Below, in pieces: positions 16,792-41,016 of a DNA stretch of 64,000 bases. A model generated the notes under the pieces. That model had not been told where the DNA came from. It did no database searches and was given only the letters and a program-made list of their open reading frames with translations. Source of the DNA: Membranipora membranacea. Lineage: Eukaryota; Bryozoa; Gymnolaemata; Cheilostomatida; Membraniporidae. The position numbers and the translations under genes are program-made. The stretch's first letter is position 1; the number at the start of each line of letters is the position of its first letter. The DNA lies in contig OU612075.1 of the NCBI GenBank assembly GCA_914767715.1, positions 10,850,001 to 10,914,000 of the forward strand. Reading direction: 5' to 3'.

Positions 16792-16821
16792 CATTACAAA
16801 ATAAAGTACACCTATGCAGTA
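16792..16821. repeat. Left TIR of giant element
   Basis: Thirty bases exactly complementary to 40987-41016, with divergence immediately inside. Confidence 0.85.
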
Positions 16822-16953
16822 TCCTTAACCAGTGGATCCTGACATTTCTAGTTGTGGGTGTGTTTAAACAGGACCCAAACAAAGCGGTAATATATTTAGT
16901 GATATAAGGCTGCAATGCCATGCATAGAACAAGTCCCAGGCCTCTCCGAGACC

Positions 16954-17055
16954 ACCAGCTGGTATCCAACATGTCTTGCCAACCTGCGCCGATACTGGTC
17001 CGATGCTACCAGCTCGAATCCAACATGTCTTGCCAACCTGCGCCGACGCTGGTCC
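16954..17055. repeat. Left subterminal 54-bp direct repeat
   Basis: ACCAGCT then a few variable bases, then CCAACATGTCTTGCC and AACCTGCGCCGA, repeated at a 54-base period. It is GC-rich in an AT-rich region. Subterminal repeats with a palindromic core are common transposase-binding sites; ACATGT also recurs near the right end. Confidence 0.7.
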
Positions 17056-17924
17056 ACAGCATGCGGTGCCAGCAAGAGCACATGCCACACAGCATGCTGT
17101 AATCACTGCCGTAAGTGGTGTCGTAACATGCTTAGTGTAGTATGGGGAGTTGCATTACCATTTACAATGGGCGGGGCTTACTCAGGATTAGAGACTAGAG
17201 CATTATGTTGCTACAGTAACATACATATACAGTATTTAATACGTTTACAGGACCATGGCAGTTCAGACAATCTTCAGCATTCAAAGTCAAAACATTGATA
17301 TCACCAACTCATCTTACTACTTATTGATACACTCATGGCATCTGCAAATACTACAGTGGAGGCAGACAATATTGCTGGTAGCAGGGAATATACTACACCA
17401 GGTCCAGTTGCATCAGCCAATATTAGTATCACTGAGATTACTTCACCAGGACCAGTGGTAGCACTAGACAATATTACTAGTACTAACAATGAGATTATTA
17501 CACGAAGACCAGGTACACCATTTGAGAATATCCCTGATGTCATCAGGGACTCGATTATGAGTGAAGTGAGTACGAGGGAAGTCATCTATCTGGACACAGG
17601 CAACACTAGAAAACTTGCAGCTAGGAAGGCAGCCTGGGAAGAGGTGGCCAGGGCTGTGGGGAAACCTTCAGAGGTCTGCAAATCTGTGTATGAGAACAGA
17701 CGATCCTCTCTCCTCAGACATCTCAAATCTAAACATGCAAACGTGCAAACAGAGAAGGATATAAGCACATTCCACAAAGAAACAATGTTTTTATACCCCA
17801 TCTTAAAACAATGTATTAAGAAATCGCTTACTAGAAAAGCTACAGCAACTACAGCAACATCATCAACAGGAGCAGCATCCCCAACAACACCAGTTATCCA
17901 GGAAACTATGGCGGCCCGTAGCAC

Positions 17925-18050
17925 CTTTATTAATGCGCATTAATTAACATGCTAACTCGCTAAGTCGCTTATGCGCATTAGTTAACATGCTAACTCGCTA
18001 ACTCGCTAATGCGCATTAATTAACATGCTAACTCACTAACTCGCAGTTAA
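17925..18050. repeat. Left subterminal repeats of the 5.3-kb element
   Basis: Three units of ATGCGCATTA followed by a TTAACATGCTAACTCGCTAA-like stretch. The inverse set is at 23113-23210. Confidence 0.85.
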
Positions 18051-18064
18051 ACCTGTTTTGGGTA

Positions 18065-18370
18065 ATGACTGTATTATCAAAGATGGGCTTTGTGATAGGC
18101 ACTTACACCACTACCATACCTGCCATGACCCTGGAACTATTTCAAACTACTTACATGGGAGATTGTGAGATGCCAATTCTTCTTGATCAATCATTGAGTC
18201 AATGTCTTAGGTCTGTTGTATTATTATTTACATCACATGTTGGTCATGTGATCGCACTCTTATGTGGAGGACACAAATGGATTGTGGCTTTTTGGTTTTG
18301 GAGTTTGTTAGTGGATCACCATGAGGAGCCTGAAGCAGACAAATTAATGAAGAAACTTATACATAGATAG
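18065..18370 (+). CDS. Unrecognised 101-codon open frame inside the 5.3-kb element
   Basis: An open frame with several hydrophobic stretches in its second half (LLFTSHVGHVIALL, WIVAFWFWSLLV). I recognise no domain and see no convincing splice partners. It could be a relic of element coding sequence or chance. Confidence 0.15.
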   Translation: MTVLSKMGFVIGTYTTTIPAMTLELFQTTYMGDCEMPILLDQSLSQCLRSVVLLFTSHVGHVIALLCGGHKWIVAFWFWSLLVDHHEEPEADKLMKKLIHR

Positions 18371-18611
18371 TTAAATGAGTTAGGGCTGGCCAGCTATAAA
18401 GAACCACAAGAAGAACACTTACCAGGTAACATTACTTTACATCAAGGTATCACTCACTCATTTTGGCCAAAGTTGCATGCATGGATAGCCATGGATTTAC
18501 ATGCAACAGCCCATGGGAATGGGTCTTGATGGATGCCCTAGCCTAGACTGCTCTGCAATCTTTCTTTCCAACCCACAGGTCTACTCCAAAACCTGGGATT
18601 TCACTCCAAAA

Positions 18612-18727
18612 TCCCTATTTTCACACCTCAAATAACACAGGTTGGATCACAGGTCTTCTCCAAAATCCCAGGTTTTTGGAGTAGACCTGTGATCCAACCT
18701 GTGTTATTTGAGGTGTGAAAATAGGGT
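18612..18727. repeat. Palindrome in the 5.3-kb element
   Basis: An arm beginning CTATTTTCACACCTCAAATA is exactly complementary to the arm ending in CTATTTTC's complement near 18725; about 40-bp arms with a short loop containing CCCAGG. Confidence 0.7.
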
Positions 18728-18817
18728 GACTCAAAATTAGTGACTGGAGTTTTGGCAGGTCTGGTACTTCATTACAGTCAATGTTGTATGACAAATTTCC
18801 ATCAATCATTTTGTTAT

Positions 18818-19062
18818 GTGCAGTTCTAAGAATGCGCAGTTTTAAGAATGCACAGTTCTAAGAATGCGCAGTTTTAAGAATGCGCAGTTCTAAGAATGCG
18901 CAGTTTTAAGAATGCGCAGTTCTAAGAATGCGCAGTTCTAGAAATGCGCAGTTCTAAGAATGCGCAGTTTTAAGAATGCGCAGTTCTAAGAATGCGCAGT
19001 TCTAGAAATGCGCAGTTATAACAATGCGCATTTCTAGCAATGCGCATTTATAATAATGTGCA
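18818..19062. repeat. Short tandem array, AATGCGCAGTTCTAAG-type unit
   Basis: About fifteen units of 15-16 bp, alternating CAGTTCTAAG and CAGTTTTAAG forms and decaying to GCATTTCTAGCAAT at the right end. The GCGCA core resembles the element's subterminal ATGCGCATTA. Confidence 0.85.
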
Positions 19063-20355
19063 ATGTTTTGTGTACTTTTCATTCAGTGATTACTTTAATA
19101 TGTATTTTGGTTTCTCACCTTATTCATGTTACTGTCATCTCAAGTGGATCACCCTATTCTTCCAAAAAGTAGACAACTCTCCTTTAGTTGCCATACCTTT
19201 AGATTTTGTGTGACATATGATGTGATATTATTTCTTGATAATAAAATCATGATGGCTAATTTAGTCCAGCTCCAAACCTCATATTACGTTTGTCTTGGTT
19301 TGATATATTGTTCCAATGTTCCGGGACCTAAATTGTTTCCGCTTACGGTTTTAATAATCTTTTATAGATATTCCATACTATGTCTCCATTACATTAATCT
19401 TTGATAATCTTTTTCCCACAGTGAAACCGCTGCATATAGTGTAGTGTCTAGCCTACAGAACTGTTGGGTTAGTCCAGAACATAAGACATGTCTATATACT
19501 TGGGTCGAAGTATGAAGAGAGAGTATCCAAGACTGCACAAATCCGCACAACACTTGTACAGTTTCTTCTCACAACGGGGAGAATTCTCCCTGCTCCAAAG
19601 CTAAATAATGATACTTTCAAATTTCAAATTAAACTCATTGTCATTTTATTATGAAAGAGTGTGGTGATTTTTCAGGTTGTTTATTTATTGCAAAATACCT
19701 GTTTAATGATAAATATATACATATGATGAAAAATTTTGTTTATTAAATATAAAAATGGAGGAGGAGAAAAATTTAATTGGTTTGATAGCTTTGCTGCAGG
19801 AGTCATCGCTCTCACCATTCAGAGTAAGCTCTATGACTTTCTAAAAAGGAGAATAACAACACAGTTGGTTTCCTACAATGCATTTGGTCCAACTACACTG
19901 ATACAGCAGGGATACAGTGCTTCTTTCAAGACTTCTTTGTATTCTACAGAGTTGTCCTCTCTTGTTCAGAGGTCTCAACTCAATAGTTGAACGATTCGTT
20001 AGATTGAATGGTAACAGAGCCAGATGGTACACTCAAAGTAGGGCTCATATAGTAAAAAGTGATCACGCACTTAGAATTTGCCTAGCAATGACCTTTATTA
20101 TTTGTTTGTTATTTTTGCAGAGAAACTAAGCTAGGACTTACTTGAAAGACCCTACACAGTCTTTAGTGTTTCAAGCAAACTTGACTACCTGAAAATGCCA
20201 ATCTTAAAATCTGTGTGTCATGTCATTGTACTGATCCAGATAGCATATCTTGACAAACTTTGTTGGTGCCCCCTCCTCAACCAACATAACCAACATCAAG
20301 GTTGTCATGACAGGCCATTAGCTGGTTTACTTACATCTTTTTTAAGACACTGAAG

Positions 20356-21710
20356 TTAACGTCGATTCTGATTAGATGCAGCCCTATAGAGATCCCCCAT
20401 CTTCTCGATCACTACAGTATCATTGTAACCCAGTGCCCTCTCAGCACCTTCGAAAGATAGACATATCCATTACTAGCAGGCAGCAAAGGCAGTGCATGCA
20501 GGCAAACAAAATTGGGGTAAAACATAGCATAGCCTAATAATGCAAGAGATTGGCCTTAGCCTAGCTCAACTAAGTTTAAGTAATTTCTATTTATCTAAAC
20601 CAAGTTCTCTCAAACTCTTCTCCTTGACAAACAGATAAAAAAAACTGAGCAATGTAGATTGAAATGGTCGCCGCCAACCAGGTAGTATTAATATATTTAT
20701 CAACATACAAACAACTCACTCTCAATCCTCTGATTTGAGGTTTATCCGAACTCCTCACACAATTGTCAATATATCTGCAATCAAAATTAGTATGAGGATA
20801 CAACACAAATAGGTCTTTATGGCCAATCCCAATCTTATCCTTTCAGTCAAACAATACTGCTCAAGTCTCAAGATCAACTGGATACTGTATCTCTGCTGCA
20901 ACGAGCTTGATTTCTGTACTGAGACTAAGCAAGGAAAATGTTTACTTACATGTACCAGTCGGTGCTTCCTGAGTAGAACTTATTGGCTTTTTTTTTCTTT
21001 TTTCTGGGGTCAAAGTGAGTCCTTCATCTAAAGCAAAATAATTTTGTGTTATCAATTGGTGAAATGTCGGGTACTAATTCTGAAGTCGCATTTTCACTCT
21101 TTCTAAAATTAACAACACAAGTGGCAGCTTATAATGTAACTATGGGTTAACAACGGATAGGATCCATGATATTCATCTTGGGCAGGAACCATCTCAAAAT
21201 TGAAACCTTGGTGGCCAATAACTGTCAACAGATGTTAGTTGATATTGCAGATACCTAAAAAAATAACGTATAGCTGCTCATAGATGGTTGGAGTTGTCAT
21301 CCCCTTTTCCGTGACATTGCAACTCCAAGACGATGTCAATAAAGTAGACCTGGCTGATAATGATGACTTCTTCCTGTGACGCCACCTACCAAACTGGGCT
21401 ACTTTATTGTATTGTCAAAATCAGTGATGGCAAATCATTTTATCAGATGTTTTGGGAAGAGGCTGACTTGAATTTCATTATAATATTATATCTATTCTGA
21501 GTCAGATTCATCTGGTGGGCCCGCTACTATGATTATTCTTTGATCGGTCTCTAGGTTGGTAATGTATTTTATCTCATGAATAAATCTCAAATTGTGACTC
21601 ACCAGAAGCAGTCTTTGGATCTAATGTTGGTAGTGATAAAGGTATAACATTGTCATCATGCCTACCATTGTTATCATTTGTACCATCGCTCTCTTCTCCA
21701 TCACCATCAT
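20356..21710 (-). CDS. Three phase-linked exons of an unidentified gene in the 5.3-kb element
   Basis: Minus-strand exons 21603-21710, 21027-20950 and 20447-20356 have acceptor and donor sites and phases that agree; the last ends in TAA. They encode an acidic Asp/Gly/Asn stretch, a basic KRKKK nuclear-signal-like run and a short tail with EKMGDLYRAA. Layout resembles the linker of the host MADF-BESS protein. Upstream exons were not found between 21711 and 23100, so the product is incomplete and its function unknown. Confidence 0.4.
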
Positions 21711-22987
21711 CTTTAAAATATTACAATTGAATTATTTTTTCAGTCCAAGGATTTCACTGGGCACAAAATTGTTATTTTGAGGACCCTAACAAACCGCTGG
21801 TCATTTTTACTGTATTGCCAATTGTATTGACAAGGGGTTTGAGTGCAACAAATCTATGATGGTGTTCATTTTAGGATACATTTTAATATATATATTACAG
21901 TATAAAGCGGAAAATAGGGTGAATCAAGGTGTGAAGTAACTGTTTTTTTACCAATTTACTGCGTCTATTCCCGCCAGCCGGATAATATTGGCAATTCATT
22001 ATTAGGGCCCTGTTTTAATTAAAGTTGACAAAAGCCTGGTCTTCAGTCAGGGGTTCAATAAAAATAATTAAATCTTATTGGTCAAATCCAATGCTCTCTG
22101 GGGGCAGAGGACAAATTGTATCCGAACTGGGCTGGCCTCTACAATGACAATACTTTGACCAGATTGTTTACCAAACTTTGAACTACTAAGAGTAAAGGCT
22201 TAGACACAAAGCTCAAATCAAGGCTAAATATCTGAATACAAGGTGTGAAGACTGGGATTTTGGATGTGAAGAAGGTAAAGCTTTTAAATGGCATAGTATG
22301 GTTACGGTAATGGTCCCATCCTGACAATCCCAGGGAGGGTAGGCTACTCCCATAAAATTATCCACTATCCAATAGAACCACAACAATGACCCTTGCGTCT
22401 TGGCCTACAACTAACCCAACATATATATCTTCCTTAATACCTTGATTAGAGCGACATGAGCAAACCATTGACAAAAAACCATGTTTTCCAACTTAAAACA
22501 TGTCCATTCACAGACAGCAGGTCACTGACAGTTGATTTGATGAGTTGCAGCCTTGTGTGTGTCTGGTTCCCTGATAACACTAGTGACATAGGCCTATGAA
22601 CAGCTTAGTAGATACTTCATTAACACACAGTTGACACCACAATATGTAGTAGTAACTGTGCAAAATCAATCTGAGGTAGGCCTACTACTATACTATGCGA
22701 GTTGCTAATCAATATTATATCAAGGACTCCTTGATCATATACTTACTCATACTGAGTTTGAAAGGTTATCATTTGAGTACATATAACTGATGGAATAGTC
22801 TGCAAACTTTGTCCATCACGCTCTAATGTTGTACCAAACCAGAGAGTTATAGCCTTACCATACTCAGTGATGAATGGTATGAGGATACAGGTGTCATTTA
22901 CAATAAAACTCCATCAGCAACAACACAACAAATTACATTGCTTTGTTTAAATCATTTTTTGGTGGAGGAGTAGTAGAGCAGAGATTA

Positions 22988-23046
22988 GTATGACCTCTGT
23001 GATTGGTCTTATTTTGAAAGTAAGACCAATCACAGAGGCCATATCA
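22988..23046. repeat. Hairpin near right end of the 5.3-kb element
   Basis: CCTCTGTGATTGGTCTTA and its complement are separated by a few bases. Confidence 0.7.
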
Positions 23047-23112
23047 AGACAGTGATAGCCCGCACATGCATAAAGACAGACCCAAAAATATTTCTGGAAA
23101 TCTTTAATCTCT

Positions 23113-23224
23113 TAATGCGCATTAGCGAGTTAGCGAGTTAGCATGTTAACTAATGCGCATTAGCGACTTAGCGAGTTAGCATGTTAGCTAATGCGCATTA
23201 ATAAAGGTGCTATGGGCCGCCATA
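23113..23224. repeat. Right terminal and subterminal repeats of the 5.3-kb element
   Basis: Inverse of 17907-18030, ending GGTGCTATGGGCCGCCATA. Confidence 0.85.
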
Positions 23225-24897
23225 AGGAAACACCACGGCATGACAAGAAGAGATGTTCAAATAATGGTGAGAATTGTTTTCTGATAGGAAAATTTTACAG
23301 CAAAGCATACCTGATATACCTTGTGATTTGGACATAAATTGGAGTAAAGTTGTACCAATTTTCCGTGTTTCATTTCCACTTAGTACCATACTAGTAGGCC
23401 TACAATATGCCAGGTCACAAAATCTTAGGAGTTTGTATGATATGGAATAAATATCAGTGTGGAAGTTTGTTGGTGTCTCAGCTCTATTCCTCTACGAGTC
23501 ACGTATTAACCAATTTCCAATTGTACCAACATTGATAAACTTACTTGCCGTGCATGGCTCTCAAAGTTAAAACACCCAGATCAATTTATAGGCTCAAGCT
23601 TAGGTAGTGCCTGTCAGGTATATACACATGTAGTTTCACTGAATTTCCTGCGTAAGATGGAAGTGATTATGATTCTAAATTGTGAGCCTTTAGTTTTTTT
23701 TATGACACCCCTGCTAATGTTGAACACCAACGTCATGTTCACCCTGGTCTAATCGCTGATTTTAAGTTTCACAGATACAGGCTTTACTAAAATTATTGTA
23801 AGATGTATGTGAATTTTTCATGCAATTGACTAACACCACCTCACCTGTTCTGGAATTTTATTTTAGACATTGGCACGGGCAATGAGTCGGACAAGGAACT
23901 ACTTGGCGAGAACAAGAATATCAAAGAAATAGGTAAGTAAAGGCGTTAGCTAGGAGAAGCCTTGTGCATATGGTGGCTTTGTTGCTTAGACAGTTAGACT
24001 TTATTTCTTCATTTACACATGATTTACAATATAACACAGAAAACCCTCAAAACAATTTCTGCATGTCCTACCATCATCGTTAGCTATTTTTGATGGCGCT
24101 TGAGTTGTTGAAGCATTTGAAATCTATAGCTAACAAAACTCCAACAGGCAGCTCATAGTTAATCAAATGAATATATGGGCTTTGTTACTACCTCCTGATG
24201 TGTTGGCATGTATTATATTTTCCAAACAAAAACCTGCTGTCCCAGCTATTTCTTGAAAAGGGAATTTCGATATAGACTTTTTGTACAAGAGCTGTCAAAC
24301 CTCAACCTCACTAAGCCTACCAGTTCTCTTGAAAGAAGGATTTTACTTGACTTGGAATGAATAGTTTACTCATGACTCAAACTCTTCTCTCACAAAAAAT
24401 TGATCTGATTCTTTACTTGTTTTGACTGAAGAGACGAAAACGGGAGTCAGCAGGAGTTGATTTTGTTATAATCTTGCTGGCTATAGGCGAGGAGCTGCTA
24501 TAGAGCTGTGTGGAAACAGCTGATAATTTGATGCTGTTGCTTCACCCATGTATAGTCATAATTTTGGTGTATTCCAGGCCAGATTATTAAAAATGACGGT
24601 TTTTTTACAGGTGCCAGTAATACGATTGACCAAACTTCATCGGAGTGTATTGTTACAGGAAAGAAACGGAAAACTACGGTAAGATCCTGGTGCATTGTTT
24701 CCTGATACTTTAAACAACCCTATCAAAAAGAGAATATTATTGTATTATATTGTATTGTATTATATTATCTTGATATTATAACAAGATTGTATAAACTCCT
24801 TGGTGTAACAGTTGGCTTTCTACTGCTGGCCTGGATGCAAATTTATCATTTTGTTGAAAAGTAATGATATAAACTTGAGTTTGGTGACGCTAGTTAA

Positions 24898-24969
24898 GGG
24901 GCTACATAATAATATTATGTAGCCCCATAATGTAGCAAAATGTTGTCCAAGCTCATATTATGAGCTTGG
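24898..24969. repeat. Two adjacent perfect palindromes in the last MADF intron
   Basis: GGGGCTACATAAT and complement (24898-24926), then CCAAGCTCATA and complement (24947-24969). Confidence 0.75.
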
Positions 24970-25434
24970 AAAAAATTTTGCTAGCATTGAATCCGTGTGC
25001 GAAATGGAAAGCTTTTCCTCCTGTGAGTACCTACTGTACACCCCATAGGATAACAACAGTGCTCTTGATATTTTTTCCAGACTTCGACCGCAGATCCTGT
25101 GCTGATGGAGTTACTGAAGGCCATCAGGCATTCTGACACAAACGAAGAAGTTGATGACAACGTCAGCTTCTTTAAATCCATGCTAATCAAAGTTAAAAAG
25201 CTGAATACTGATAATCAGCTGCTATTTCAGCAGGAGATGCTGGGTAAATATGCTGATATTCTCCGGCGTCAGAACGCACCAGCACAGCAGAACTCATTTT
25301 ACCAAAACTTAAATTATACTGGTAATTTTGGAACCCCATCAAGCTCTCATCAACTTTATACCGATTCAATGCCTCCTCCTCCCCCTCAGGTTTCGACCCC
25401 AACAAGCTCGCAGCATACTTATCAAAATCTTTGA

Positions 25435-26829
25435 TTTTTTCTTACTTACACAATTTATCTTCACAAACACTCGATATTTAATATTATTATCAGGATAATT
25501 TTTTACTTCTAATACTCAGTCTCAGTCAGAATACGTTCTTTTTACTTACTACTTGATCTCACAATTTATCTTCGCAAACACTCGATTTGTAATATTATTA
25601 CCAGGATTATTTTTTACTTCTAATACCAGTAGATTTAATACTCAGTCTCAGTCAGAATACGTTCTTTGTTCACAGATTTAAAAAAATAAACTTTAACACT
25701 AGTCAAATGCTTATTTTGCACATCATTGTATTTTCTATATAAGCACAAAAAAAGCAATTCAATCCAGCAGCTAAATTTTGCCCAAGTGATAAAATATATG
25801 ATGATAATGATATACTGACAGCTCCCTCAGCGGAATTTACATATTTACACAAGTGATCCCTCTGATCTTCGGCGTCATGTGTATAGTTTCTTGTGCCTAG
25901 GCGCGATGGAGCATCTAGGGCTGGGTTTTCATATTGGTTGACAATATTATGCCAGTCACCCTCTTTCAGTTTGTTGTCAGCATATGAGTCTCAAAATGCT
26001 GTTGGTAAATACCCAGCATTATCGGTACATAGTAGGTAGTTGTGGAGGCAGCATGTAGCTTTCACAATCTTATCTACTGTAGCCATATCGGCTCGGAACA
26101 CACGATTCACATGTCAATTACCAATCCGATCATAGGGATATGCATCAAATCTTTAGAGATGCATCCTTGCTAGGACCAAGGAGTAACTGTTACTCCTTGC
26201 TTAGGACTAGGACTGAAATATAATCTAGTTGACACTCACTCAAAGAATCAGATAATGCAGTTATATAATGTTGATGAAAATTTTACACAGGAGTTACTTG
26301 CAAGATGCCCCTGCCCCTAAGGTCTGCTCAGACACCCCAAATATCTTACTGCCTGGATAAAGACTGTTGTTTGCGACACATGTGCATTTATATCAAACAT
26401 TTCCTGACCATATTTCTGCATGCAAGGCAACTTTACTATTTTTAAAAGCAGAGTATGTATATCGGTTTCCTTTGTCTCACAACTTTTACATTTAGTGCTA
26501 GCAATACAATCAATCATGTAAGAATTTTTCACATCTTTTAAGTATATTCTTGTGTCATAAATCTGTTCAAAGAAATTTTGACATGAACATGGGCAAGGAA
26601 AATATATCTTTTGTTTTTAAAAGCACCATGATGCAGGTAACCATGATAATTTGAGTTGACATATTAATACAAGGCAAGAAGAAGAGGAGTACATTAACTG
26701 ACAACATGTTGACTAGGACATGATTTGCATGACAACTTATGAATAATGAGAAGCGCTAGTACAGTATGAAAAATGTCAAGAAAAAAAGAAGGAAATAATA
26801 CAATTTAACAATCACAATGAAATCGATAG
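25435..26829. other. Non-coding stretch between convergent genes, with a roughly 115-bp tandem duplication
   Basis: 25446-25668 holds two copies of a block containing CACAATTTATCTTC, ACACTCGAT and ACTCAGTCTCAGTCAGAATA. The first AATAAA after the MADF stop is at 25685. The remainder shows no exon that I can support. Confidence 0.55.
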
Positions 26830-28811
26830 TTAATTAGTTAAGGCAATAAATTTTTCCATACATAAGATATCGTAATTTTCAGGTATTGAAGAAGCAGTAC
26901 CAAGAGTTGATTTAGAAACTTTAACAGTGATGCTCATTTTAAGAAGATTAGGTGTTATGCTCAGTTGAGTTAAAAAAACCAGTTTATTATCGATCAGTTT
27001 TATTTTCCATTGTTTTGGCATCATTTTATCAAAGTGTGTTAGCTGTGGGAACATGCCCTTAAAGTTGAGCATGTCCTCCATTCCTACTGGTACCGACGTT
27101 ATTGGCAGGGTGAAAGAAAATGACGTGCCCTTCTTCTTAAAAAACTCCTGAATGTGCAGGTACAGCTGGTAAACGAATGTGTGACTGGTTGGTTTTAGCA
27201 TAAGATTTCGCTTCTTCTGCTGTAAATCTTTCATCTAAAAATACACCAAGGATTATTGGGGTGAAAGCAATGCCGATGACAGTGCTATGTAGGTCTTTCA
27301 AGCAGAATTCAAACGGCACATTAAGGATGGGGTGTTTGTTGATCTGGACACAAACGTCAGTACTAGCTGTACATGCATACAATCCAGTAGAATTGCGACT
27401 ATGACAGATCATTTCAACAGATTTGGAGAGAATTTGCACGTGAACATCGACCGGATGACAGGCTTCTTTGAAAAATCCTCAATCCAGTTTTTTTCTCAAT
27501 TAAGCAGGCGAGCGAGAGGCTGATGAGGCAATCTGAATAGGCCTACTGGGATATGAATAATACTTACAATGTTATCATTGGAGATCTGCATATCCGGCAG
27601 CTCAAGAACGGAGGCTCTAACCTTAACAATTGCCAATGGGTCATCTTCCAGAATAAGAGATACATGAGCTTCACCCGCAGCTAAAATGAGAAATTTTTTA
27701 ACGGTTACACAGCTAATGCTCTATTAATATCTTCCAAAACAGAGGTCGGTAGCAATATCTTGGGCGGAGGTAAAAACTTCATGTCATTGCAAAGGCTCTT
27801 TACAAGCAGATACAAGAATACTTCGCAGCCATCATCATACAAAGAATGTGACAAGAGAGGTTTTCGGAAGCATGATAATATCTTCCATCAATCTATATGG
27901 CTGAGGCTTAATTTTCGCAACACAAAGTACACATAATGACATTTATCTATAGTTACATAAAAATAGTAAGTGTAACAATCACTCACCATCTGTTTCAAGG
28001 AGTGAAACCCGAGCTTTCAATCCAAGCCATCGAACAACCATCCCAATCACGAGTAAGATGTTTCCAGTAATCAAAATATAATGCTCTGTATATGTAGAGG
28101 GCGCAGTAGTAGGCATAGTAGGTGCAGTAGAAATAGACAGAGTTGTAGCAGGTGCTGGAGAGATAGAGAGTGCAGAAGTTGTAGTAGGTGCAGTTGATCG
28201 AGTTTTCTTTACAGGAGATCCTGGTGAGGGAGGCACGAGCTGAACATCACCGTAGAAAACAGTCTGAAAAAGAATTGATCAGAAATTTGTAACAGCAAAA
28301 TCAAGATTGAAATTTCCAGGTGCTTGGCCAAGTTCTGGAAACCACTTTCACATACAAAATCACACAGTGACAATGGTACAATCAACAACTTAACAAATGG
28401 ATGAGCTAGCTGATTTGATACTTGTTGATGTAAGCTATGTCAATAGTCAATAAAGGTCCTGATCATATTGGGGATACGCTCAGATGCAAAAATTACATTA
28501 AAAGACGTCTCCCGAATATATTTTTATCTACTGTATTCAGGAAAAAAATTATTCAATATTTTGTGTACATGTTATTAAGGGAGTCAACGCAATAACAACA
28601 CACTTTGCAAAAAAACAAGCGGCTATATGGATATTTGCCTTACCTTATCACACATTGTCGTGATGGTGGCAAGGAAGGGATCATTAATCTTGACCTGAAA
28701 TTCATACTGCTCCATCCAAAACTTGTCTTCCCTCACCAGCTGCTCTAATTTTGTTCTTTTGATCTTCCGCCCCAATTCCCTGGCTGGCACTGCGGTTCTC
28801 ACATTCTTCTC
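26830..28811 (-). CDS. Minus-strand exon block of unknown function, possibly 3' part of the BRCT/HMG gene
   Basis: Exons 28811-28644, 28263-27987 and 27680-27568 join in phase; a following exon at 27343-27137 is compatible. They encode a basic helix (GRKIKRTKLEQL), a strand-rich segment (KFWMEQYEFQVKI, TVFYGDVQLV), a Pro/Thr/Ser-rich linker and a hydrophobic run (ILITGNILLVIGMVV) that might be a membrane segment. Near 27137-27234 the frame overlaps another open frame that continues to 26830 and looks more protein-like (FVYQLYLHIQEFF), so a small frameshift or missed intron is likely. The join from the exon at 30217-30074 does not fit in phase. It may therefore be a separate gene or be missing an exon. 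Confidence 0.4.
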
Positions 28812-29229
28812 CTGAAACTAGAGCAAGTAATGATATCCTTAGATTACATAATTTAATCATGATTAGATTTATTTGAGCTAGCAAACAGTGAGAATGACAG
28901 AATTTCTTTAAAAAGAAGGGCTGTCAGACAGAAACATTTCTGACTTCGGCCAGGATGCTAGAAGAATTCTAAGCAAAAGGAAATTCTTTTATCAGCTCAG
29001 ATGAGATGAGGGTTGTTAGAAGTATAATACATATTTTAGGATCATTCTCTCACCCATAAATTTAGTTAGATATCAAAACATCATTAAAATAAACTGATTT
29101 TAGTTACAAAATTGTTTAACTTGGTCCACTATTCCAAGTTTATAATTGTCGAATTTCTTAATACTTAATTATTTTTGTGGATTTTTGAAAATTACTTTCA
29201 TGGTTTTGCTAAAATGTGTTATGAGTTCA

Positions 29230-29660: not shown

Positions 29661-30073
29661 TCCAGCTCCAACTTTTAAGCCATGATAGTTATGGTGGTGT
29701 TTTCTGCACAATAACACATTTTATTTTGGAATCATTTTCTGTCCCATGTGTCATGTAATCCTCACCTATGTATACTTGACAAATTTAGCCAGTGAATATC
29801 CATTTAATAGCATTAATATTGGTGGTAAATAAAATAATTCAACCCTGAACAAAGCCTTTCGTCCATCGTTTGTGATACACTGCTCAATTCAATCAAATCT
29901 TGTTGCAATTTGTACACTCTAAAGTGTGTGCTTTAAGGGAAGCATAAAGTTATATTCGTTGATAGTTAATAAACATGGGGGCAATTTTTTCCTTGCCAAT
30001 TGCTTGACATGAACAGTATATATAGCATATGAAAGTAATGCAAAGTCTATAATGGTCCGTAATCATGACATAC

Positions 30074-33000
30074 CACTTCTCCTTTGAAATTTGGGAATCG
30101 CTCCCATCTCCTCACTGTCCAGTTTCCAGTCTCTCCTTCTCTTTCGCACCATGCCTTCTCCCATCTCCCTGTCACGTCTAGTACGTTCAACTGCTCCATC
30201 CGTACTGACTCTCAATCCTGAAATGACAAGGTAATAACGGTTACAACATGTAATTAGTATCCTAATTCTGTGTCTTAGTACAGTGTTATCAATGTTAATC
30301 CTAAAATATCTCCACTCTGTAACATCAGCCAATTTCACTCTGTTGCATTCTGAAATACTGCTTTTTCCATCGCCTTTTACTCAGTAACTGATGTAAATAA
30401 TTTCAAAGTTACGTTGGCCTTCCTAACTAGGTTTGACAAGGGTAGAGCCAACAATGTATTGCTATAACTAGATTAAAAGCCAAAACATTTATAGGCATCA
30501 TTTGGATTTTGGCAGACAGCAGTTCAATATATTCAATGCACCTCGCTCTCTGATTCTTTTGGCAGCCTGCACATAATCATTTCTTTCACTCTCTCTCATC
30601 TCTCTCCACATAAGTCCAACCTCCCTCCTCCGCTCTGTGTAAGATAACACCTGAGATGTTTTACCATACGCGTTTTTTGAAAACAAAACGAATGGTGACA
30701 CATATTTGTTTTGTTTCCTCTTGATGACTGTCACTGAAGATAGGGACTTCAGAGCATTTTCACGAGCTTGCTTTGCAGCTTTCAATACTGTATAGCTCCG
30801 CCTTGTACCAGGTGCCAGGAGAGGTGGCTGAAATGAAAAATGTTCTTACTATTAGTCTGCTGTTAAATAAATATTATAATATATATGCTTATCACAAGAC
30901 AGTGCTGATCTGCAGCTTAATGTCAGTCAAATACCACCTAACTATATAATATATTCCTTCTAGCTGACTAGGTTGTAAATTCCATTGCATAGGTATCTGC
31001 ATGATTGGATCTCATTAAGCTGAAATACAATTTATACTATTTTATTTAGTTAAGCTAGTTTGGGCACTTAATGTTGGCTAGCACCTTATGTTGGCTAGCT
31101 GAGATGGGAGTCGCGAGTTCATAAGTGGGAGTGATTGAATGTTATTTGATCATATCCCACATAATCAAGTAATTCAATAACATCATAGACTTACAGCTTT
31201 GATGGATGTTACTCTCAGCTTCAACTGGGAGTAGTCAATCAGGTACTCATTGTGAGGTATAACTGTCTTAGCTTTGAGACACGCATCCATCCACTGGTGA
31301 CTGACTACCGGCCACCCTCGACGTTTAGCAGTGATAAGGATCCGTGGGGTGACCTTCCTCTCTGGAGCTCTAGCAGAGGCAATAACCAGAACAGGAATGC
31401 CATCTGGGCAAGAGCTAGCCTTGCTTGCATCAAGATGCACATTATCTGTCATCTCCAGGAACTGATCTCTCATCGAAGCTAGCTTCTTGGGCAGTTGCCC
31501 AAAAAAACTGACATAGGACTTGAAATGCTTGAATCTTTCTGTAGTGCTAGTACCATCACTGAAAAAAATTACATTACACATATTAGATACAAAAAATATG
31601 AAGCGTATCTGCTAAGTGCTTGTGGCATAACAAGTTGATAGTAATCGCGTCAGTGGGCTACTAAATGGTTTTGCTTTGTTTTGTAATCACAAGTAGTTGA
31701 TGGTGATGATGGTTCTACCGAATTCAAGGGATATTATCACAACACACTAAAACCAATTCAAGAGTTTCCCACTAGAAAGCCACCAAAAAATCCCTTTCCA
31801 TACTGAGCATTAGGATTATTATTTCACCTCTCTCGCTGTTTCTCTTTTTCTTCAGCGATCCAATGCTGTAGTTTAGTTTTTTCCTTCAGATAAGGCAACA
31901 GTTTTCGGAAATCAAAGAACAGTAGCTCATAGTTAGTGGATGTTGGAGCTTTACCCCCACCATGGCTTGTGCAGCTGATATAATGCCGCTGATGAGAATA
32001 GTTGAGATGTTCTCCCTGCTCTGTGGACATTCTAAGAACAAAGCACAAGAAAAATAAGAAGACTACAGCAGAGTAGATTTGATAAAAGTATTATTAATTA
32101 TTATAATATCATACTAATTTGTCTGCAAATAAATAAGAAGAACAGTTTCTCTTTCAAACCAAACTAATTTCAAAATTCTTGCACAAGGCTGTATCATTTA
32201 ACAATATATATCACCTTGAGAAATTCAGTGATGAAAACAAAGTGGCAGATGTAGCTTGTATCGCCCAAGTTGCTTACGATGGCAAGGGCAAACCATTTGA
32301 ATACTTTAAAAAACCAATCAATTACTTACCGCATAAATGATGCAATTTCTCTGGTGTTTAGGTAAGCCGGAACATAGTCAATCAGCTTCATGATATATGA
32401 GGTCATTGCTTTTGATGACCACATACACTTCATTGAGGCATGCAGCAGGTCTGCTAGCCGTTGGTACTCTTTCTTGTCAGATGACTCCAATCCAAAGTCA
32501 TAATCCTCTGGATCTTTGGAGCCTTCCTCGCGACCAGGTTTCAGCCTTGGAGGCTTTTCGCTATCTCTGCAGAGTAAAAGAAGTCATCATCAACAAACTT
32601 ACAAACATACTTGCTAGAGAGTATCAATGTAATAATATATGAGGCCATCAGTGGAACTGTAGAAATAGACAAAACTCATATCAATACAACTTGTGAGAGA
32701 TCCTACATTGCAGAAGTAATGTTAATATATTATTATTATCAAATTATGTGCTGCTTACTTCCAATTAAAATGATATTATATCTTAATACTTGAAGAAATC
32801 ATCCCAATTAAAAATTCTGGTTGGATATCTGATGTTGTGCAACACAATACTAACCGAAGCATATGGAGCATGGTCCCAGCAGTTCTCCAGATGAAACGTA
32901 CTAACGTTGACTGACATCGAGAACCATCTAGCTCTCTCAAGACAATAGCTGGTACATTTATCACTGGAGCTTGAACGATGACATCCACCAAGAGGTCGTC

Positions 33001-36000
33001 ATAAATCCCGTTTGTCTCACCAGGGAAGTCAAAATACTCCTTCGGTGCCAGCACAGAGAGAGCTTTCGACTTGTTGAGTGTGATTTCCGACTAGGAATAA
33101 AAAGGAAGAGGTGACTTTGCGGGTCTCAGCTCAGCGCAGCATTTAGTGAGTAGATAGCATTTACATCAGGATAATTTTAATCCTTTAACATGCTCGCAGA
33201 TTAAAGTTCAGTTCAGTTTATACCATATTCAACATCAGGTAGATATAAATGAATGGTCAAAAGAATGAAATGGGATTAAACGGATTATTGACATCGTGTT
33301 AATATTAGCTGAAAATGTCATATATTATAAGGGGGAAATTCCTTGAACGAAACTCTGGTGCAACAGATTTCTGTAAATTCAATCTGAAAAGCCATAATTG
33401 TTTTGCGTTTATAAAGTTTCTTTTCAACAATTTATGAGAACAAATAATTTTGTAATACTTCAACTTCATCAAAAGAGGATAAGCACTAGTACCTGTAACT
33501 TTCCATTGACAATGTCTATGTGACCAGTCAGTACATCTCGCTGCTTCAGTCGATCACAGAATAGGTCTACACGCCACATAACATCCCCTTTCACTTTGAC
33601 ACTAGTCTCATCGACAATCGTCTCTAGGGTAAGGTTGATGAGCTTTTCAGCCACTCGAGATGCAGCGTGATCTATACACATCACTTTTCTGACTAAGGGA
33701 ACAGAGGGCAAGAGACTATCCATATTGCAGCGGTCGATGGTCAGACCCAATGAAGACCTGAGCCCATCTGCACCAGTAGCATCTTTATCCTCCATGCCCT
33801 CACTGTATATGTTACTACCTAAATAGAACAATCATAATTACAGGGTTGTATCCATGAGTTTTAGAGTTGTAGGGCCAGGCGGGGTGGGTGTGAGAGGGGG
33901 GCTGAATGCCTTCCCACAAGGGGGGGATATGGGGGCCTTCCCAGAAACAATTTGAAAAGTTGAAGCAATCTTGAGGGGTTTGAGCCCTATTTGGAAAGGG
34001 ATTAACAAGCAATTGGCTACAGCAACAACTGAATTTTAGGGCTTCATAAATCATTTCTGATCCCTACTGGAATTGATACTTTTCTGCAATTATTTTGACT
34101 TGAGGATAGACAAAGCAAGTACCATCGCTTGGCATTCAAATAGCAGTAAGGTATGGGGGCTCTCCAAACACAAATTTAAAAATTGAGGCAGTTTTCAGGG
34201 CAATATCCTTCTAAGATTAGAGGTCAATCTCCCTTCGCAACCAATTCAAAACAGGCTACTTGTTAGAGCCTGGCCCGTATATGCGCAAATGTTTTGAGGG
34301 GGCCATGGCATTGAAGCATAGCTGACATGCTTCAAAGTTTAAATGTATTGATGAACTCTAAACCTTATGACAAGCAGAAATTTTCCAAGGAAAACAGCTA
34401 CATCAGTTTAATCCCTTCATAATACCTAAATATAACACAAGGGGCCTTCCTTAGCAGCTGCTATTGATAAACATAAATACAGTTAATGTGTACTAATATC
34501 ACCTTAGTCAATTTTTGGGGTTTTCCAAAATTGTGGTAGGTCCATGGCCCGCTAACCCTACCTATGAATACACCAATGCATGTATAACCAGCTATCAAGC
34601 TGCAACAACAAGCTACAACTGCGATAGATGAGCTCATGTCAATAATACTTGAATATATTGGCCAAAGATAACTCCAGCAATGGAAAATTCATTGACACAA
34701 TTATCAGATTGGCAGTTTGCAGCCAATTGATTTAGGGGAAAGATTTGATGCTGTAATACATACTTATATATACTTGAGATGCAGCTAAAATTATCATTAT
34801 GTACACAGAGTTATTTTGCATCATTTTCAAACAGCAAGTATGTGCTAGTCATGTCTTTCAGTCAGTAACTTGATCAATAACTCATTCACTAAATTTACCA
34901 TTGATTTTTCTAGGATGAAAATCTCCCTCAAGAGCATTCAGAAACATTGTGTCTCCCGTTAAGTACCACACAGCATCGTCATTGGCCACAAACTCATCAA
35001 GCCAACCTCCGATGTTGGCAGATAGTGATAGGCGATGGTCATCTCCTGAATATACACACACTGACATGGCAAGGAGAGGGGAGTGGATCTTGAGGTCTTT
35101 CGGTGGATTAAGAATTAATCCGTTGTCTATAGCTGAGATTGTGATGGCAGTGCTTTTGTGCCCACCAACGGCTCTCCCGTCACCCCATATCTAATAGCAA
35201 ATCAAAAGATAAACAAATCAATGACAACTTACAATAGCCAATACAAACTCTCAGACACCATAATTACCAACAACGGCACCCCACAACGCTGTGTACTAAG
35301 CTCTCTATTGTTTCAATGTATACTGATGGTATTAGCAAGATAAGGAAAATTTCCAGTTTTAAAATACATGGACAACATGTGTTTGATTAGAGTAATTGGA
35401 AACACCTCGAATCCAGTTTATGTTCTGAAGTAAACAAGATTGCAAATCAATAAGCATTTCTTGACCAGTGTCTAAATTATAGAAAAATTGGTGTAGAGTG
35501 GAAGCTGAATTTTGATTAGCCCATACTGGTCAGCAAGAATACCACATCAAGCTTAAATTTGGAGGCACTATCAGTGAAAGCAACCAATTCACTATTTGAA
35601 TAGGCTGCCACCAGAGCAATGCCTGTTACAGAAGTATAATTAAATTCATTTATGATGCTGCCTTTATGGAAATAAATATTAATTAAAAGGAAAAACATGG
35701 CATCCACTTTTCTTTGTTCATGAACAGATAGGGCAACAATACAACTCCACAATTCTGCCCTAAAACTGCAGTGAAAAGTGCTAACAGCAGCACAATACAC
35801 AAATAACCATACTGATAAACATTTAAGGTTCAAACTACACAGCAATCATCAAATAACAGAACAGATTAATTTATAATTTGATGAATGATACTCAACATCC
35901 ATATTACACACTAAGGCAGACTTACTTTCCAGCGGTTGTTTTTTGTATTGGCAGGGATAATTAGCTGCAAGTAGTTTTTGACCGATCGTGGCTCGATCCT

Positions 36001-38241
36001 CCATCCGTGTGTGGTTTTCATGGGCTTGAATAGCAACTCAAAATCACACCGCATCATCTTTTTCTCCAGATTTATAAGAACATCACCTGTGAAGAATCGA
36101 GTCTAAATAAGTATCTATATGATTGTGCAATGCAGCTAACATATAACAGTTCAGCTAAATTTATTTCAGTCAAGTAGCACGTAATGAATATCAGCAGCTT
36201 CTTGTGATTATCTTGACATTGTTTACAGCCTTTTTTTAGGTAAAGGTAAACAACAAAGTACAACAAGCTGCAAAATCTAATCAGAGTTCAAACTTCAAAT
36301 TTGATCAAAATTGATTGAGTTAGCAACAAAAAACCAGTTGACTACAAACCATTGCTACTACATAATCCAATGTCACATCACAAACAATTTAGCACTTTGG
36401 TGTTCCAATGGTAATATTCCATACAGTGGCCTGTCTAAATTTATTTTGAAGTCAAGGTTATCAATAATTCAAATCTTTTTAGAAATTAGAAAATAATGAC
36501 AATGAAGGGATCAACATTATGCTTAAAAATAGATGTAATGACTCACTTGGAAATGCACTGGGGATGTGACGACGGAGTGTCTTGATAGTACGGCTGACAC
36601 TTTGACTATCAGTGATGTGAATAATCTCACGTGGACTAATAGTGTGTCTGCGGTTGACAGCTTTTGAGAGTCTTTTTACTATCTTGTCCGATGGTAGACG
36701 TTCGATGATGGTATTAAGGTCCTCACCACTGAATCTTCCTTCACAAACGGCGAACCTCCAAGTTTTTGCCTGGTAGGCCATTGAGGCGAGAAAACTGTCT
36801 TTAGATCCTACAATTAATGTAAATAAACATCATCCAGATATCATGTTATCAGATTCCCATATACCTGTAATGACACACAAGAGAGCCCCAAAACTATCCA
36901 ACATGTGAGTTACCAACACAAAATCTTTAAAAAGAACAGTACTCACACAGCCTTTTCAGCTTTGGTTTGGCCACAATTAGGTTTAAAACACACTGCTGTT
37001 ATACTCTCTTATACCTCCATGAACCTGTCCGATGAGATTGTTTCGGTGGATCTGTTCGGCTTTCACACGAGTCATCAGCCTCTTTCTGGTGTTGACTGGT
37101 GGTTTTCGTAGTTGGATGGCTGGCTCAAGTGGCTTCAGAATAGCATTATGTTTTCTTATAGGGCGATTATCAGGAAAACCTGAAAAAGATAGAATAAGGT
37201 ATCAAATTGGCGAACAAGTTTCCATAAGGTAATAAAGATAATATGCTTTTGATGCCAGCTGACTATAGTATTTAATTTTAATAGAACAAGCGTATTAGAA
37301 AAAAACTTCGCCTTTTTCTTTCACTTTGTTTCACATAACATCTAATAAGGTCAAACACATAAAATTTATAAATGAGATTCACGCTGGTGATATTATGCAA
37401 AATGTGCTTACGTAGCTCACTATAGTATATTCTACAAATTAATTGTAGTGGACACTTACACTCTTTATATATAAGACGTTCCAAGTACTTTGCTAGCTTG
37501 AGCTGGTTGGGTAGAACCTCACCGCCAGAGGAAAGTGGTCTGTTTAACAACTGCATTATTGTGCATAACAATGAAATCTTTCTTTCTCCAATGGTCTTGT
37601 GATCTTTCTGAAATGCCAGAAAAACAAACCATAAAGATCGAATGCAAGAAAATAGGTTGAGGATGAGCATCAGAGCTGGACTTTGGCTGTATTCACCAGG
37701 GGTTCTCCTATCGGCTCGAATTTTAGTAACATGTACAGATACACGAGACTTGCTTAGGAAAAAGTAATCTACTTTTCAAAATTTTCATTGTTACCTTGTG
37801 CTCGGATATGGACAAGCCTCTTGATTTAAGAAAGTTTTCTGGGACTTTAGCTCTCCTACAATCTGGTTTTATGTCTAGAATCTCGTAGTAGGCAGCCTGT
37901 GATAAAAACAATCCCCTTTCCTGTGAGACATACATTTCGCGACCCTCAAAGAATCCATCTGGGCCTAAAAAATATATTTGAGAATAACAAACAGTCTTCA
38001 GGGTGTTAAATCACACTAGAAAACAAGATAAACTCAAAAAGTCAGTCAGCTACATGGAGATCAGTACAGTACAGCATGATGATTCTCATGACATTACAAT
38101 TGATCACTGATTCACACTACAATATCACCCACCACCCGTGTGTACAGCAATACAGACTCCAACTCATTTGCTATCTGATGATAGGGACATAGGGCTAGGT
38201 ATGATGATATGTAAAACCAACTTACCTCTAACTGGCTCCAT
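30074..38241 (-). CDS. Large transposase-like protein with BRCT-like and HMG-box domains
   Basis: Fourteen exons on the minus strand, every junction in phase: 38241-38226, 37964-37795, 37607-37460, 37179-37015, 36807-36547, 36086-35926, 35190-34899, 33818-33493, 33090-32855, 32566-32330, 32031-31828, 31558-31195, 30827-30542, 30217-30074. This is 1,003 codons, continuing. Start ATG 38241 is the first in frame. Residues about 790-840 resemble a BRCT C-terminal half with its tryptophan (VVSHQWMDACL, W828). Residues about 897-955 form an HMG box (YVSPFVLFSKNAYG, then MWREM). The N-terminal 700 residues have WGDGR (D311), CIDHAASRVAEKL (D454) and TEQGEHLN then CTSHGGG (E675/E678), which I read as a possible D-D-E core. 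Being the largest gene in the giant element, it is the likely transposase. The enzyme assignment is inference. Confidence 0.65.
35200..35520 (+). mobile_element. Second degenerate LINE reverse-transcriptase fragment
   Basis: Plus-strand frame with GTPQRCVLSSLLF (35274-35312), then KYMDNMCLI in place of the YADD box, then a WC-like tail. It lies in an intron of the BRCT/HMG gene (between 34899-35190 and 35926). The family may be RTE- or CR1-like. Confidence 0.65.
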
Positions 38242-38253
38242 AGATGCAGGTTT

Positions 38254-38941
38254 AGCTACATATCAAAGAGAAGAGGGATATCTGTAATATAATGAAAATT
38301 TGGAATTGAAAAAAATAGACAATACAAATCATAAACTAATAATAACTACAGGCTTTGGCACTTTGCAGACCGGGTTGTCCTCTCCCTGATATTAATCTCA
38401 AAGAGGAGATAACCAAGAACATACACTCAACACGCATCCTGAATCCTGAGTTTATCGACACGGAACAAGTATATTCAACAAAAACTTGCTGGTGATATGT
38501 TTTCTTTTCAAATCTATCTCATCATTTTGAAAATCTCTATTGCCAGTCATGAAATGTGATTCAACTACACCTACATGGGAAGGGTAATATGTAATTCATT
38601 GGGCAGTTCTACAAGGACCAAAAGAGTGTGAATTGACAAACATATGTCTGCATGTTTAAGAATTAGTTGACAATGTCGTCAAAACATAATTTGAGCAGAG
38701 TGTTTATTTGCACACAAAACTGACAAACTTGGGATAAGATCGTTCGTTACAAATGAACAAGACCTGCTTGATCTCTAATCACTAGGTGGAATTATACAGC
38801 TTTAAGTGATCGATCTATGACTTACGCTTATTGAAAGATCAAATAAGCAAATGTTCTGGGCAAAGAGCTTGAGAGAGTGGGATTCAAAATGCCTTGCTTC
38901 TGGTTGACCCGAGATAAGGCTACCACATCGCTGAAAAAAAA
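38254..38941. other. Upstream of the BRCT/HMG gene; nothing recognised
   Basis: The first coding exon could extend to an acceptor at 38254, so a 5' UTR exon and promoter probably lie here, but I cannot locate them. Confidence 0.4.
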
Positions 38942-39810
38942 AAGAGTTTGCTTTTTATAGGATCTTTTGAAATTCACCATTCAACAGGTATCACACTAGA
39001 GGTGACCCAGTCACAGTCGAGACACACAGTACCGGCACACAGTCCTGACAAACAGTCACAGTCGAGATTTACTCAGGGCCTCCTCCAATACTCAGCTGGG
39101 TGAGAAGATAAAACAAAGTGTTGACTATGAAAAAACAAGTTTGAACTTCACTCACTATAAAAAGTTCATTTCTGAGATATCTTTCTCTATTCGATTGGTC
39201 GTTTAGCTTATATACTGCGGCAGTTAAGTTTCATCCTATAACTTGGTGAATTGCTAAATATATAATGTTATACAGGTGTATTTCAAGGTGTATTTCAAAG
39301 CAAGCAATGTTGTTGTGAGTGAGTAATGAAACTCCATCAAGCCTGTGATGAAGTCAAAACTCAGATCATCACTCACAACAATGAAAAAGGAAGAACTTTT
39401 TATAGTGAGTGAAATTCAGACTTGTTTTGTCATATGAATATAGTGCAGCACTTAGTTTGTTTTCTCTCACCCACCTGAAGGTCGGAGTAGGCCCTGAGTA
39501 AATCTCGACTGTGACTGTGTATCTGGACTGTGTGTCTGTACTGTCTGGACTGTGTATCTGGTCTGTGTGTCTTGACTGTGAACCTTGATTTAGTAATGCT
39601 CGACTATGACTTAGTCACCTCTAGTGTGATACCCTTTGAATGGTGAACTTCAAAATATCCTATAAAAAAGAAAGGTGTTATAACAGTTGCTCAAGGGAGT
39701 TTTGTGATTGCAATTGCTTCATTTTTTGTTGTTGTGAGTTTTGCTCTGATGTTTTGACTCCATCACAGGCTTGATGGAGTATCATCATCCACTCACAACA
39801 ACAATAACTC
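38942..39810. repeat. Large nested foldback near the right end of the giant element
   Basis: Outer arms at about 38945-39030 and 39595-39680 are complementary (TATCACACTAGAGGTGAC and inverse), with CAGTCACAGTCGAG repeats inside each arm. Inner arms repeat AACTTTTTATAGTGAGTGAA. A GTTGTTGTGAGT...CATCAAGCCTGTGATG block at about 39310 recurs inverted at about 39730-39805, so several inversions or insertions are layered. Confidence 0.7.
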
Positions 39811-40986
39811 TCAAGAAAGCGATTGCAATCATGCATTTTGCAAATGATACTCAAGGTTTGATGAAAATTTATCTAAAATTAGATGAGATTACTGGCAGCT
39901 AGAAATTATAAGGTTATAATTGCCTAGTAAGTGTTGAATCAAATAGTAGTATTTAGCATTATCATACCATGTAAACTCAACACTACTCCTAGGCCGACTC
40001 AAAGGCAGTGAAGTTAAACCACATGATGCATATAGAGGGATAGGCCTATGGACCATCTCCCTTAGAAGTTATCAGGCAGCAACGATACTCCTTGTTATTA
40101 CTGAAACTCAACAACATTATTACTCACTCGAGTCAATATATTTAATCGCTGACTAGCTTATTCAAATGTTAAATGTAAGTAATGTCTCACTACTCAAGTC
40201 AGTCAGTGAGTGGCGGTGTTGTGCATGTGTGCTGCAGCAATAAGCAGCCTGACAGGAGCTTACTGAATTGTGTTACTCAGACATATAAGCACAAATTATA
40301 TCACAGTAATGTACCACTCACAGTGGACGTGGTGGAGTGTCTGAGTCGAGTGTGTGTACATGTTAGAGCAAGGAGTAACACGTTACACTAACACCACCAA
40401 CAGCAACCTCTTGCTAACATTTCTTTGTTACTTACTCCTTGGTTAGTATTGAAAGCTTTTCTCAGTCAACTATTCAAATTACCTGATTTGAGAGTTTGTA
40501 TGTCAACTAGTTTCACTACAAGTTGTGCCAAAAAAGTCATCTCTTACTCAGTAACAGTCAAAAATTATTTCAAATATAACCGCACAAGTTACAGCAGTAT
40601 TCATAATATTATCATGACCTTGACCTAGCCAAGATAATCATTTTTCTATTTTGCAAAGTAGTTGGGTTGAAAGTGTACTCCTCAACATTTATCTTATAGT
40701 ATGGTGGTTATATTTTCGACATATTGACCAAGCCACAGCAATCAAAGGACAGTCATGAAATGAGATGGATGTCGGCTTCTGTCTCCCAGAAAGTGTTCAC
40801 GACATGTCCGACTGACCAAGGCCGACTGGCCAGCATGCCATGGGGCTTGCAAGCACAACATGTCCGCTGACCCAGCAACTAGACCGGACACACCCTGTAA
40901 GACATGCTCTATGGGGTGCCCAGACATGGTCTGCTACATCTTCCAGCCAGTTCCCGACATCGGCCCTGGGGGCCGATCGGACATAC
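39811..40986. other. Right part of giant element, GC-rich subterminal zone from about 40790
   Basis: 39811-40740 shows no supported exon. 40790-40985 is GC-rich with ACATGTC motifs and GGCCGA words (40803, 40857, 40970), comparable to the left subterminal zone. Confidence 0.5.
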
Positions 40987-41016
40987 TACTGCATAGGTGT
41001 ACTTTATTTTGTAATG
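40987..41016. repeat. Right TIR of giant element
   Basis: Exact complement of 16792-16821. Confidence 0.85.

Follow-up and report, generated by a model that had tools for sequence, protein, structure and literature searches.

What is the 24.2-kb insertion that interrupts a tandem gene array in the bryozoan Membranipora membranacea, and what moved it there? The question arises from a stretch of 64,000 nucleotides, hereafter the window (assembly GCA_914767715.1, contig OU612075.1; C11:10850001-10914000 within the 339-Mb genome of 18 contigs that was the set searched). A preliminary description of the window proposed a giant DNA transposon between positions 16792 and 41016, with two genes and no evident known family. 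We consider, with a probability of about 0.8, that the insertion is an autonomous DNA transposon of the cut-and-paste type, about 18.9 kb long, with a minus-strand gene as the presumed transposase. Cut-and-paste transposon superfamilies are few; both tools and host systems, RAG among them, derive from them. The element has 30-base-pair (bp) inverted ends, an unspecific 2-bp target duplication, a paralogous site without the insertion, a second copy that is nearly identical, and many miniature relatives.

The two arms of the terminal inverted repeat (TIR) are complementary at 30 of 30 bp, exactly as first described (coordinates of all features are collected in Table 1). Directly outside the borders, the sequence reads ..TGTCATGTT on the left and TTGTTGTTCGG on the right. 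The preliminary description also held that a paralogous flank reads straight through, and the flank alignment agrees: the paralogous array strip 5870-6260 aligns through the joined flanks of the insertion and collapses to an uninterrupted sequence. The final 170 bp of the left flank match this strip at 78%, and on the right a 65-bp piece, beginning 33 bp into the flank, matches it at 77%. When 400 segments of 200 bp, drawn at random from the 64 kb, were scored against the flanks (a sample that includes other array units and the flanks themselves), 3 on the left and 4 on the right reached the local score of the strip. Since a single TT stands at the read-through paralogous site, a 2-bp duplication (TT) accompanied the insertion.

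The TIR is not unique to this locus. A search of the assembly at up to 3 mismatches gave 138 + 129 = 267 ends, whereas the reversed pattern used as a control gave 0 + 0, so the occurrence of the TIR is not due to chance. Exact matches stand at five places, namely both ends of the window copy, both ends of a second paired copy on C7, and one miniature end on C3. Of the element, 201 bp at the left end and 231 bp at the right end each recur at about 100% on C7, where the second copy occupies C7:22402451-22421646 (19,196 bp) with an AA duplication on both sides. Over the three main pieces, with each copy's own insert left out, the C7 and window copies show 31 mismatches in 18,877 ungapped positions (0.16%) and 73 gap columns, which is 99.45% identity counting gaps; the C7 copy carries a separate insert of about 284 bp, not found in the window copy. 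Because the two copies are 0.16% apart and each has its own target duplication, the element seems to have been recently mobile. C5 carries a third copy, without its left end; in its main pieces identity with gaps counted is about 93% (single pieces 80-97%).

Many of the other TIR ends belong to miniature elements of about 325 bp, of which the first 69 bp are mostly 80-81% and the last 64 bp mostly 88-89% identical to the giant's ends. A further 44 loci, picked from the listed genome matches to the element ends, were examined; an end pair was present at 39 of them (miniature derivatives, mostly 325 bp) and at none of L041, L052, L053, L058 and L071. The 39 loci gave 44 rows, 3 of which join ends of different neighbours, leaving 41 pairs. 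Identical 2-bp flanks were found in 31 of the 41 pairs; over all 44 rows, these 31 compare with shuffles that average 4.1 and reach 13 at most. Flanks matched over 3 bp in one row of 44. The duplicated dinucleotides are of 13 kinds, with AT in 5 and TA in 4 of the 31. As the matches lie far above the shuffles and involve 13 dinucleotides, the duplication is 2 bp long and not sequence-specific; it possibly leans toward A/T, as 17 of the 31 consist of A and T only. Together with the paired copy on C7, these duplications confirm the interpretation as a DNA transposon. Elsewhere, at C2:39006466-39007502, the TIR recurs every 166 bp six times and again after 177 bp, apparently as a satellite-like tandem array made from the miniature element.

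The borders of the preliminary description stand, and its length of 24.2 kb is inflated, as about 5.3 kb is a separate nested transposon; the element itself is therefore about 18.9 kb long. The heptamer AGGAAAC lies on both sides of the nested insert and is single at the same place in C7, which has no such insert. The insert sits in the MADF coding exon, and the same exon is uninterrupted in C7. Its inverted ends are built of 38-bp repeats, a 16-bp tandem array lies at 18816-19062, and no recognisable transposase was found in the open frames scanned within 17907-23224. Nor is the element exceptional by size alone, since plant CACTA elements can exceed 20 kb (PMC10741241, in excerpt). Near the right side of the element, overlapping inverted repeats of up to 83 nucleotides occur at 38947-39831 and are paralleled by inverted matches in the C7 and C5 copies; they are possibly an older nested fold-back element.

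Which gene could move such an element? The larger candidate is a minus-strand gene of 13 hand-curated exons, running from 37964 down to 30498, with GT-AG borders and fitting phase at 12 of 12 junctions; the phase fit is not an independent test, because phase guided the choice of exons. A home-made codon and splice model had produced a chain that was only partly right, and it was replaced by these script-checked exons. Spliced, they give 902 complete codons and a stop, and no start codon was found. The exons of the window copy read open. Between the window and C5 copies, 42 of 2143 exon positions differ, compared with 124 of 4104 intron positions (p = 0.013); the ratio of nonsynonymous to synonymous differences (pN/pS) over the exons is 0.37, and no stop occurs in 712 aligned codons. 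Frame by frame, the same comparison did not separate coding from non-coding sequence, while over the curated exons it did. Exons A-I of the window and C7 copies differ at 1 of 2291 bases.

The gene also has more distant relatives. Exon A recurs at a C3 locus at 34-36%, where exon C and, weakly, exon B are found too, and at L073 (C5:21817026) matches to exons C, D and E follow one another in the same order. In public assemblies, exon C alone matched P0001 at 69%, and a profile of three exon C sequences found 13 further relatives (P0003-P0015, E 8e-45 to 9e-10), none of them named. These are not 13 independent witnesses, because P0007 is a near-duplicate of P0001 and P0011 of P0003. Two acidic motifs stand out in the alignment. 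The first, WGD[GA]R, is kept in all rows that cover it except P0015 (GEGR); the second has GD in every row that covers it, P0011 leaving the alignment before this motif. Within exon C, the candidate catalytic residues D1 and D2 occupy positions 4 and 80, 76 apart. This conserved GD...GD pair may belong to a DDE/D RNase-H core, for which the libraries gave no match above threshold, and STEQGEHLNYSHQRHY in exon G, downstream of exon F, lies in what we take to be the region of the third catalytic residue, by analogy with RAG1-type enzymes. Judged from its sequence, the gene is probably a transposase. The preliminary description had assigned DNA-binding domains to both genes; here such content is limited to the C-terminal part, where an HMG box lies above the Pfam cut-off on the exon frame alone and below it in the spliced protein, and a BRCT match is sub-threshold.

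The second gene, on the plus strand, is predicted by joining two exons: Pfam places MADF in 17299-17940 and BESS in 25069-25431, and each match exceeds its curated cut-off. The claim of two genes with DNA-binding domains thus stands for this MADF-BESS gene and the large transposase-like gene, with the amendment that the former is interrupted in the window copy. A relative of the MADF exon at C2:17723124-17723483 (63%, DNA similarity 70-76%) is either a relic or a host gene derived from a transposon.

The GC-rich subterminal zones with ACATGT cores that had been noted inside both ends are real. Their guanine-plus-cytosine (GC) content is 0.53 and 0.57 compared with 0.38 overall, and in the C7 copy the two outer 300-bp zones contain 4 ACATGT sites against 0.39 expected from the interior rate, and 11 ACATG sites on both strands against 2.0 expected. 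In the same zones, TGACAT was not enriched. The site CCAACATG(T/C) is kept in the 4 miniature copies inspected. As a guess, these zones could be binding sites for the MADF-BESS protein or the HMG box.

Taken together, the parts suggest how the element may work. The 13-exon gene would encode an RNase-H-like (DDE) transposase that binds the ends, excises the element and joins it to the target with a 2-bp stagger. Binding of the GC-rich subterminal zones, with their ACATGT sites, would fall to the MADF-BESS protein and the HMG box, which would also assist in synapsing ends that lie nearly 19 kb from each other; the miniature elements would be moved in trans by the same machinery. In the window copy, another transposon later landed in the MADF exon, breaking its frame unless it is spliced out.

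Table 1. Coordinates of the features of the insertion and its empty site (positions in the window)
Feature	Position	Strand	Basis
Whole insertion, giant DNA transposon including nested insert	16792..41016	.	
Left TIR, 30 bp	16792..16821	+	
Right TIR, 30 bp	40987..41016	-	
Target duplication TT, left	16790..16791	.	
Target duplication TT, right	41017..41018	.	
Paralogous empty site TGTCATGTTGTTG with single TT	6055..6067	+	alignment to joined flanks
Left subterminal zone, GC-rich, containing two direct repeats of 54 bp (87% alike) with ACATGT in each	16945..17052	+	
Right subterminal GC-rich zone with ACATGT/ACATG sites	40786..40986	+	
Nested transposon, 5,318 bp, not part of the element	17907..23224	.	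113-bp inverted ends and 7-bp duplication AGGAAAC
MADF exon, interrupted here by nested insert, running on in C7	17335..17906	+	Pfam MADF above cut-off
BESS exon, to stop codon	25081..25434	+	Pfam BESS above cut-off
Exon X	37795..37964	-	GT-AG, compatible phase
Exon Y	37523..37607	-	GT-AG, phase
Exon Z, basic	37015..37179	-	GT-AG, phase
Exon A	36547..36807	-	GT-AG, phase; recurs at C3
Exon B	35926..36086	-	GT-AG, phase; weak in-order match at C3 (26%, E 0.01)
Exon C, WGDGR (candidate D1) to YLTGDTMF (candidate D2)	34899..35190	-	P0001 and 13 further relatives; 5 own-genome loci
Exon D	33493..33818	-	44% in-order match at L073
Exon E	33021..33090	-	65% in-order match at L073
Exon E2, least certain	32611..32656	-	splice sites and phase only
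Exon F	32330..32566	-	C5 copy; GT-AG, phase
Exon G, STEQGEHLNYSHQRHY (candidate catalytic E, putative role)	31828..32031	-	GT-AG, phase
Exon H, BRCT-like	31195..31558	-	BRCT below Pfam cut-off; GT-AG, phase
Exon I, HMG box and stop codon	30498..30827	-	HMG_box_2 above cut-off on exon frame alone

Several results weigh against a minus-strand transposase in an element of this kind. The 13-exon chain is a predicted gene model whose 5' end was not located, and the placing of the third catalytic residue in exon G draws on resemblance to RAG1-type enzymes. No Pfam transposase matches any curated exon, whether as single exons, as spliced A-I or as spliced pieces, nor any of the 16 rows of the exon C alignment; the BRCT match lies below the cut-off. 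The core has no match in the PDB, where the HMG part gave faint matches to SOX9 and noise; a search of the protein collection with the spliced core returned no relative; and two AlphaFold models of exon C were too poor to use (mean predicted local distance difference test, pLDDT, 34.5 and 40.6). In the C5 copy, no alignment was obtained for exons G and H, exons D and I matched in fragments, and the first motif reads WGDRR; in L073 it reads WADAK. The C3 and L073 relatives both carry stops, and 30 kb around the former and 10 kb around the latter yielded no convincing TIR. No transposase exon was found within the 20 kb fetched around the C2 relative of the MADF exon, and 10 of the 41 miniature pairs have no 2-bp match, a few of these having altered ends. 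The sole transposase name seen was Plavaka, at 12.8 bits (cut-off 26.3) in 26320-26616 (-), outside the curated exons.

The Plavaka match first appeared in a pooled scan of 50 other open frames (E 0.068), and we take it as noise, though it may be more. An RNase-H-like ZSWIM match from the pooled scan (E 0.058) came from none of the frames re-run singly (23 of the 50 were not re-run), and it is also treated as noise. The other open frames gave sub-threshold Pfam matches only, aside from the long open frame of a BEL/Pao retrotransposon at 53643-58943 (Peptidase_A17, integrase zinc-binding, DUF5641). Protein-like open frames at 26833-28817 (-) include a hydrophobic stretch and have no Pfam match above the cut-off; they were tried as a third gene of the element, which could not be established, the exon joins being unsettled. 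With the terms used, the open-access literature gave no description of such a gene set and no transposase with BRCT.

It is therefore necessary to ask whether other explanations serve better. That only two near-full copies were found might suggest a segmental duplication or an assembly join instead of a transposon, an idea that is hardly credible beside the exact TIR borders, the duplication at both near-full copies, the empty site and dozens of miniatures, and that the 2-bp duplications contradict. A more serious proposal is that the mobile element is real and that the minus-strand gene is captured host cargo, the ends being moved by an unrelated transposase encoded elsewhere. It would account for a gene whose catalysis is read from sequence with no transposase match above threshold, and for relatives on C3 and at C5:21817026 with no convincing TIR in the stretches fetched around them. 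Yet the open frames scanned inside the element give no other transposase above threshold, and the gene recurs both as divergent, broken copies in its own genome and, unnamed, in other assemblies, as transposase genes do. Moreover, two GD motifs followed by a Q-G-E motif are the pattern of a DDE enzyme with an inserted domain. We regard cargo as improbable, and the minus-strand gene as the better candidate for the transposase.

If so, to which lineage does the element belong? The CACTA/EnSpm (CMC) group, of which it could be a very divergent member, deserves the closest look. En/Spm elements encode TNPD and TNPA, and the accessory protein binds subterminal repeats; a transposase, a DNA-binding protein and subterminal repeats are likewise combined here. 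As described in an excerpt of PMC10741241, CACTA elements have CACTA/CACTG ends, a 3-bp duplication, large size and short TIRs, and a size above 10 kb with a TIR below 50 bp fits this account. The ends here start CATTACAAAA instead and the duplication is 2 bp, not 3; no Pfam CACTA model matches the curated exons, though a very divergent member could be missed. Such membership appears doubtful, if far from negligible. Membership of the PIF/Harbinger-like (PHIS) elements, in which a DDE gene accompanies a Myb/SANT or MADF gene, is very unlikely: a Myb/SANT second open reading frame is usual in PIF/Harbinger (PMC4482050, in excerpt) and Pfam describes MADF as Myb/SANT-like, but the same excerpt leads one to expect TWA (PIF/Harbinger), or AT together with GG ends (ISL2EU), where we find 13 dinucleotides and CATTAC ends, and there is no Pfam match to a PHIS transposase.

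The best reading is thus a cut-and-paste transposon of an undescribed superfamily or of a very divergent CACTA-like lineage. That it is the founding described member of a new superfamily, defined by an unspecific 2-bp duplication, one DDE-like enzyme that combines BRCT-like and HMG-box modules, and MADF-BESS as an accessory protein of its own, we propose tentatively, at a little short of even odds. If this is true, one protein could, through a repair-type BRCT and a DNA-bending HMG box, combine cutting and bending with the recruitment of repair at ends almost 19 kb apart. The two-protein, multi-domain design bears on how the ends of very long transposons are paired. With a probable enzyme outside the families searched (Pfam, PDB), apparent recent mobility and a 325-bp mini-substrate, the element would be directly testable in cells.

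Comparison with known systems places the element as follows. It may share with the Transib/RAG1 lineage the layout of two aspartates, an inserted helical domain and a glycine-containing E motif; Transib elements make 5-bp duplications and have ends starting with CAC, and the present element differs from Transib/ProtoRAG in its 2-bp duplication and in having no detectable sequence match. Zisupton/KDZ elements make an 8-bp duplication, unlike the element, for which 0 of 44 rows match over 8 bp. It resembles CACTA/En-Spm in its few full copies, many deletion derivatives, DNA-binding accessory gene and clusters of subterminal motifs, and departs from that group in its CATTAC ends, unspecific 2-bp duplication, lack of a CACTA Pfam match and C-terminal HMG box. 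A length above 10 kb with short TIRs is also found in the giant CACTA/En-Spm elements of plants (PMC10741241, in excerpt). The two-gene design with a Myb/SANT-like second gene, a part taken here by MADF and BESS, recalls PIF/Harbinger; PIF/Harbinger duplicates TWA and ISL2EU duplicates AT with ends that are usually GG (PMC4482050, in excerpt), whereas this element has neither TWA nor a fixed AT duplication, has other ends and shows no Pfam-level relation of the transposase. Tc1/mariner elements duplicate TA (PMC10741241, in excerpt), a dinucleotide seen in just 4 of the 31 matching pairs. Giant size with inverted ends is shared with Polinton/Maverick, whose genes include those for a protein-primed DNA polymerase and for an integrase of retroviral type (PMC6431247, in excerpt); no Pfam match to a family B DNA polymerase or such an integrase was found in the open frames scanned, which took in only part of the short ones. 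The early impression of no evident known family is upheld. Because none of the families compared is matched in full, we file the element as a class II cut-and-paste transposon, superfamily unassigned.

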